NCBI GenBank assembly: GCA_003648395.1
Contig: QMPB01000403.1
Coordinates: 1 to 5,134, forward strand
Length of the DNA: 5,134 nt
Direction: 5' to 3'
Source of the DNA: Bacteroidota bacterium
Lineage (GTDB): Bacteria > Bacteroidota > Bacteroidia > Bacteroidales > UBA1556
This document shows positions 161 to 475 of this stretch, one piece after another. How positions within the stretch are numbered: position 1 is the stretch's first letter; every line of letters begins with the position of its first letter. Under the pieces are notes generated by a model. The model did no database searches and was not told the origin of the DNA. It saw only the letters and a program-made list of their open reading frames with translations. A program made the position numbers and the translations under genes.

Positions 161-475
161 ATGAAAACATTAAATAACACAAAATTTGAAATTCTTACTG
201 AAGATGGATTTAAAGATTTTCGTGGACTAAAGGAATCCTCTCATGAAGAATATTTAGAATTAATTTTTGACGATACTTCCTATAAGTGTAGTAAGACTCA
301 CTTAATTAAAGTTAACGGTGATTGGGTTCAAGCTAAAGATTTAAAGATAGGGTTAGTAAATAACAAAGTATTAAAAGAAATAAAAACAATAAAAAATAAT
401 AACGATAAGTTTTGGGACCCAATAGGAATAAAAGATACTAAGTCGTTTATTAGTAAAGGTCTTATTCACCATAAT
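161..475 (+). other. Atypical split-intein C-fragment (IntC, 105 aa), AceL-TerL-like
   Basis: Residues 1-105 make up nearly a whole Hint fold without its first segment. FEILTEDGFKDFRG (about 9-22) matches the strand that usually follows the N-terminal part of an intein. CSKTH (43-47) is block B with Ser44 in the place of the usual Thr and His47 conserved. Residues 84-105, from FWDPIGI to GLIHHN, are blocks F and G, with penultimate His104 and terminal Asn105, followed by Cys106 as the +1 nucleophile. Block A with Cys1 is missing, so the split falls near the N terminus instead of at the usual endonuclease site. From memory, AceL-TerL has the same design (about 25-aa IntN, 104-aa IntC) in the same host protein. 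There is no endonuclease domain. Confidence 0.9.

Follow-up and report, generated by a model that had tools for sequence, protein, structure and literature searches.

The closest described systems to the element reported here are atypically split inteins such as AceL-TerL, GOS-TerL and VidaL. The passages of PMC13014065 on split positions place the break of AceL and GOS at S2, after helix 1, and that of VidaL at S1, after strand 2, with an N-fragment of 16 residues; a passage of PMC11766414 gives C-fragments of 104-115 residues for the known atypically split inteins. We analyzed a stretch of 5,134 nucleotides from a Bacteroidota contig (QMPB01000403.1), referred to below as the window, in which one gene (161..1636, plus strand) encodes an intein C-fragment followed by the C-terminal half of a T4-type terminase large subunit (TerL). 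The analysis confirmed that an atypically split intein fractures this terminase and that the gene is its C-half, with a resemblance far beyond chance. The element is of a known kind, at an insertion site adjoining Walker B for which our searches found no description.

The gene is a complete open reading frame (ORF) of 491 aa with an ATG start. Its first 105 residues (161..475) form the intein C-fragment, which aligns with contiguous inteins at the same insertion site and matches CatC (PDB 6dsl chain B, 'Consensus engineered intein'). When the query was the whole ORF, this match covered residues 3-108 with an expectation value (E) of 5e-7; with the C-fragment alone E was 5.1e-8. The sequence reads His103-His104-Asn105/Cys106 at the splice junction (467..478), Cys106 being the +1 nucleophile. 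The C-extein that follows (476..1633) is terminase from Walker B through the RNase H-like nuclease domain; it has a PHROG terminase match, and a sequence search aligned T4 gp17 with residues 106-417 (E 1.7e-23). The codons for Asp107-Glu108 of Walker B (479-484) directly follow that for Cys106 (476-478). Walker A is absent from the ORF; the missing N-half would be expected to contain it. The ORF was modelled with AlphaFold (66 sequences), with a mean predicted local distance difference test score (pLDDT) of 81.6; in Foldseek the model matched 6dsl chain B with E 5.7e-7 and a root-mean-square deviation of 2.1 over 107 columns, and T4 gp17 with E 3e-18.

The fragment retains its full set of catalytic residues, which are invariant across the three site-matched inteins of alignment A3. 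They comprise His47 in Lys45-Thr46-His47 (293..301), which is also aligned to CatC, Asp86 (416..418), His103-His104-Asn105 and Cys106. We take these three motifs to be blocks B, F and G. The fragment therefore has the hallmarks of an S2-type C-fragment, that is, a length within about 100-115 residues, the intein fold, the His, the Asp, His-Asn and Cys+1. The original prediction of a terL gene broken by an intein split near its N terminus, with 105 intein residues ending in HHN and terminase from Cys106, is borne out by these matches, by the predicted fold, and by the contiguous relatives at the same site and the separate N-halves ending at the same residue that are described below. Its claim that blocks B, F and G are present stands for the residues. 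Generic family models barely detect this intein: Pfam-A gave only DUF4706, an unrelated name, for the ORF (E 0.053), and the intein-bearing NCBIfam model reached E 9.3e-5 and 20.6 bits vs a cut-off of 1150.

The gene begins past intein helix 1, and Cys1 is absent from the same protein. An in-frame TAA (149..151) precedes the ATG, and AAAGG (150..154) is a likely ribosome binding site. The database protein P0001, from a contig of 2006 bases, has an identical 491-residue frame apart from three substitutions, which makes a lost upstream stretch or a frameshift in this assembly unlikely. These observations uphold the predicted start of the frame, and they speak against the sequencing error that the original prediction had considered, one removing an in-frame part just upstream. 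Contiguous forms at the same site do occur, in P0004 and in L013, L014 and L032, and the gene could in principle be the tail of such a contiguous terL that lost its front through an error in assembly or sequencing. The chance of this is close to negligible, since the stop and ribosome binding site lie ahead of the ATG, the 160 bases upstream do not code for terminase, P0001 starts at the same residue, and the frames of P0002 and L011 start at the place that matches the ATG of the window.

Insertion sites were numbered by mapping the residue after each junction on the uninterrupted relative P0003, in which the Walker B region from residue 239 reads SFRGFTINLLYVDEAAY and includes Val250, Asp251 and Glu252. 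Cys106 of the window corresponds to position 250, and the intein ends one residue ahead of the Asp-Glu pair. The equivalent pair in the gp17 alignment is D255-E256, which we take to be catalytic. Site 250 is common to P0001, P0002 and P0004, which are 3 of the 120 matches listed. Other terminase inteins are found at sites 245, 247 and 253, at Walker A (159, 162) and at 350, between C and EFLG. The last is most likely the AceL site, about 100 residues beyond that of the window, which would make the window intein one of another site: one review passage (PMC11766414) mentions Glu+2 for inteins of the Cat/AceL type, which fits a junction between C and EFLG, and the highest identity of CatC within the compared set (43%) is to the site-350 intein of P0049. 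By path length in the tree described below, a site-253 row was marginally nearer to CatC (2.15 vs 2.17). With AceL placed at 350, the window would not be an AceL allele, as its intein lies at 250 and its own C-QFIGSS stretch is uninterrupted. We recognised no description of a terminase intein at Walker B in literature searches judged from their listings, in which the split gene 17 of HY03, phiR1-RT and Thanatos-2 (see below) was not searched for.

The position of the break was derived from relatives at site 250. The terminase P0004 (755 residues, contig L012) has a contiguous intein of 135 residues at this site, and Met1 of the window aligns after residue 30 of that intein; this agrees with the earlier claim that block A with Cys1 is absent from the gene. 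Further contiguous inteins at site 250 are present in the three viral contigs L013, L014 and L032. The contiguous L014 protein reads ...ITLKELNIKLKNNKYKILTKDGF, and the split L011 has an N-half reading ...ISLKELNDELEA-stop and a C-half reading MTKNNKYEILTKDGF, a comparison which places the cut in the loop after helix 1. Among 93 N-half matches of a profile search, which were sorted by site with simple patterns (47 stayed unsorted), seven end at site 250. Their CSHE... fragments have 32, 32, 32, 33, 33, 35 and 41 residues, with ends that may be true stops or contig ends. Loci were read for halves in 11 of 20 cases, that is, all but L017, L020-L023, L026, L027, L029 and L030. The missing N-fragment should thus be a Cys-starting peptide of about 30-35 residues, as judged from these sequences, and not of roughly 25 as originally predicted.

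Kinship was examined with a tree of the C-parts of 105 inteins, which was computed from 109 of 158 columns by a quick method and has many unresolved forks. The site labels cluster strongly, with 11 changes vs a mean of 64.2 after shuffling. The window groups with P0002 with a support of 95 in the Shimodaira-Hasegawa-like approximate likelihood ratio test (SH-aLRT), and six of the seven site-250 rows group together with a support of 93. Contiguous and split forms are intermixed within site 250, which fits the fission of a contiguous intein. The design was originally called rare. The counts contradict this: 40 of the 120 matches listed begin with an intein C-fragment, a number in which P0001 is counted and in which some proteins may be truncated by contig ends, and cultured phages carry the design as well. 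A split on the N-terminal side of an intein in terL is not rare.

Judged from sequence, the C-half of the window very probably acts by protein trans-splicing with a separately encoded N-half. The N-half of this phage would end in the predicted Cys-starting N-fragment, and together the two fragments would form a single intein fold. We assume that a C-fragment together with an N-fragment bearing Cys1 makes up a complete class 1 intein. The acyl transfer to Cys106 would begin at Cys1 of the partner, and Asn105 would cyclise. The exteins would then be joined directly ahead of the Walker B Asp-Glu pair, with the N-half residue matching Tyr249 linked to Cys-Asp-Glu, and Walker A from the missing half and Walker B from the window would be united in one ATPase. 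The system may have arisen when a contiguous site-250 intein underwent fission in the loop after helix 1.

Several results weigh against this proposal. The partner N-half of this phage was not seen in the window, including the 160 bases upstream of the gene. Two scans of genome contigs, with A3 (190 stretches) and with A2 (87 stretches), gave no relative, and none of the three stretches from a scan of viral contigs with P0002 was a relative. L011, a viral contig, is the sole one with both site-250 halves, which are separated by about 540 bases that include a damaged frame; the frame of its N-half is disrupted upstream of the fragment, and L011 therefore shows the layout and not a working pair. 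In the tree, the site-250 group falls below the starred level, and L032 lies outside it on a long branch. Finally, the model of contiguous P0004 is poor in the intein, with a pLDDT of 27-61 per ten-residue block. The same values led us to drop that model as proof of what the assembled intein looks like.

The unseen partner and the broken N-half of L011 would also suit a decayed remnant, that is, a dead intein leftover in a phage that packages its DNA with another, intact terminase or with halves that associate unspliced. Some terminases in the search lists are indeed split without visible intein chemistry. However, the complete catalytic set of the fragment, the 491-residue frame that is intact in both the window and P0001, and the retention of the fragment in P0002 at 54% identity make decay an unlikely explanation. 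One group of terminases in the lists is split a second way, in the loop after NHF..L..GA(K). The tail of the N-parts (P0125, P0127, P0130-P0133, P0135, P0137-P0141) resembles an intein N-fragment without Cys1, and the C-parts (P0076, P0078, P0079, P0096, P0101, P0104, P0107, P0110) have no His-Asn junction. This is perhaps a fossil or a non-covalent split.

Fractured terminases with both halves are present in cultured phages. The two TerL halves of Campylobacter phage NCTC12673 (L006 5998-7326, L037), whose intein fragments at site 253 match each other, lie about 26 kb apart: the N-half is a minus-strand frame at 46030-46755 and the C-half lies on the plus strand from about 72.9 kb. The record of this phage lists no feature at the location of either half. 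The arrangement bears on the possibility that the halves are joined by RNA splicing, with the intein frame of the window read through from an upstream exon. There are precedents, as the relevant part of PMC3322345 gives the authors' reading of the phage IBB_35 terminase locus as an intein plus an intron, and a passage of PMC10448857 describes terL of phage ICP1 as spliced at the RNA level beside a T5orf172 nuclease gene. However, halves on opposite strands, as in NCTC12673, cannot be joined by cis RNA splicing. In the window itself a stop, a ribosome binding site and an ATG stand directly ahead of the fragment, a divergent open frame (1..90, minus strand; 30 codons from its ATG, running off the window) lies upstream, and P0001 repeats the frame of the gene. 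No Rfam intron was detected in the window, L035, L016, L011, L007 or L008, the sole match being a tRNA in L035. An RNA intron is therefore highly unlikely here.

Protein trans-splicing is the preferred reading, and further phages show comparable broken genes. In Shewanella phage Thanatos-2 (L038 467-3567) terL consists of two genes split between DE and C at site 253, and in the first of them the reading frame of the intein N-fragment continues into that of a TnsA-like nuclease. The two exteins of Thanatos-2 (261 and 350 residues) add up to the 611 residues of the intact terL of Thanatos-1 (L042 467-2302), with 1 and 0 mismatches. In the E. coli phages HY03 and PD112 and in Yersinia phage phiR1-RT the order is N-half, nuclease gene, C-half, again at site 253. 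In L041 (777-3629, HY03), L040 and L043, all phages of T-even type, the intein that fractures gene 17 is split close to its own N terminus. HY03, phiR1-RT and Thanatos-2 were translated, and PD112 at the ends adjoining the break; the nuclease between the halves is TnsA-like in HY03 and phiR1-RT. Of 761 phage records that match the HY03 stretch, 18 (12 phages by name) cover at least 80% of it. A further 22 listed records, which were left untranslated, match 64% of the stretch as two segments (98.4-99.4% identity), the pattern that empty sites would give. In Campylobacter phage CP21 (site 245), L016 (247) and L035 (247), the halves are separated by a T5orf172/MUG113 nuclease gene.

Taken together, these positions lead us to suggest, with more doubt than belief, that the Walker B strand of T4-type terminases is an intein hotspot with four positions within nine residues (245, 247, 250 and 253) that has repeatedly been split, that some phages must assemble their motor by successive trans-splicing of three or four separate pieces, and that the window is one stage of such a stepwise process, its site being one at which the same intein still occurs in both contiguous and split form.

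Some terminases have more than one intein. CP21 (L007 3130-7416) has a contiguous intein at Walker A, the split intein at 245 and, 8 residues on, a second contiguous intein at 253; its annotated C-half gene begins after most of the intein-bearing region. The terminase N-parts of L003 (4427-6361), L004 and L005 (9485-10429) have a contiguous intein followed directly by an intein N-fragment, such that a single Cys seems to serve as the +1 residue of the one and as Cys1 of the next, and no extein separates them. Terminase pieces with different intein sites at their ends or starts were found in three sets: P0188, P0152 and P0107 (contig of 235593 bases), P0158 and P0049 (32587), and P0128 and P0014 (12187). 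Matching contig size alone suggests that the members of each set come from one contig, which would mean terminases in three or four pieces.

The remainder of the window is occupied by three convergent genes on the minus strand without good family matches (1646-2455, 2465-4177 and 4196-5110). The first has weak PHROG matches to a family of unknown function (E 4.1e-6) and to a virion structural protein (E 2.2e-4). The T4 late promoter consensus, TATAAATA, is present upstream of two gene starts, at 139-146 (plus strand) and 5127-5134 (minus strand). It occurs three times in the window vs 2.03 expected, and 64 of 200 shuffled sequences reach three; the idea of late promoters was dropped for lack of signal.

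The break parts Walker A from Walker B, so that no chain would contain a complete ATPase until the halves are joined. If the proposal is true, DNA packaging would depend on the splicing of two gene products to each other. The idea is testable because genes broken in the same manner occur in cultured phages. Thanatos-2 and Thanatos-1, and likewise the E. coli T-even phages among themselves, differ in whether they have the break at the neighbouring site 253, which would allow direct study of how costly and how mobile a fractured essential gene is, and of its timing. As it has both contiguous and split members at a single residue, the site-250 family forms a natural series for the study of intein splitting, and it offers further short N-fragments for protein labelling.

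Systems in which genes are fractured at split inteins with a nuclease gene between the halves were reportedly described by Dassa et al. in 2009. The window shares with them an essential phage gene that is broken at an intein. Such nuclease genes, of the homing type, lie between the halves in L016, L035, CP21, HY03 and phiR1-RT, and by Pfam the types in the relatives of the window are T5orf172/MUG113 and TnsA-like; the C-half of the window, in contrast, has no nuclease gene within the 160 bases upstream. The original prediction had likened the design to both AceL-TerL and VidaL. As far as the passages cited at the outset describe it, VidaL (PDB 6vgv) shares a short N-fragment, a long C-fragment and dependence on Cys, but a VidaL-like reading was rejected on split position, since the window breaks after helix 1 and VidaL after strand 2 with an N-fragment of about 16 residues; the fold match of 6vgv to the model of the window ORF is weak (Foldseek E 3.5e-3). 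The likeness to AceL holds. According to the same passages, AceL-TerL, GOS-TerL and Cat have in common with the window the terminase as host protein, the S2 split after helix 1, Cys+1 and a long C-fragment (104-115 residues in the known ones, 105 in the window), and Cat (6dsl) is the closest solved structure by both sequence and fold. The window differs from them in that its intein is inserted ahead of Walker B with Asp+2, whereas Glu+2 is mentioned for the known type.
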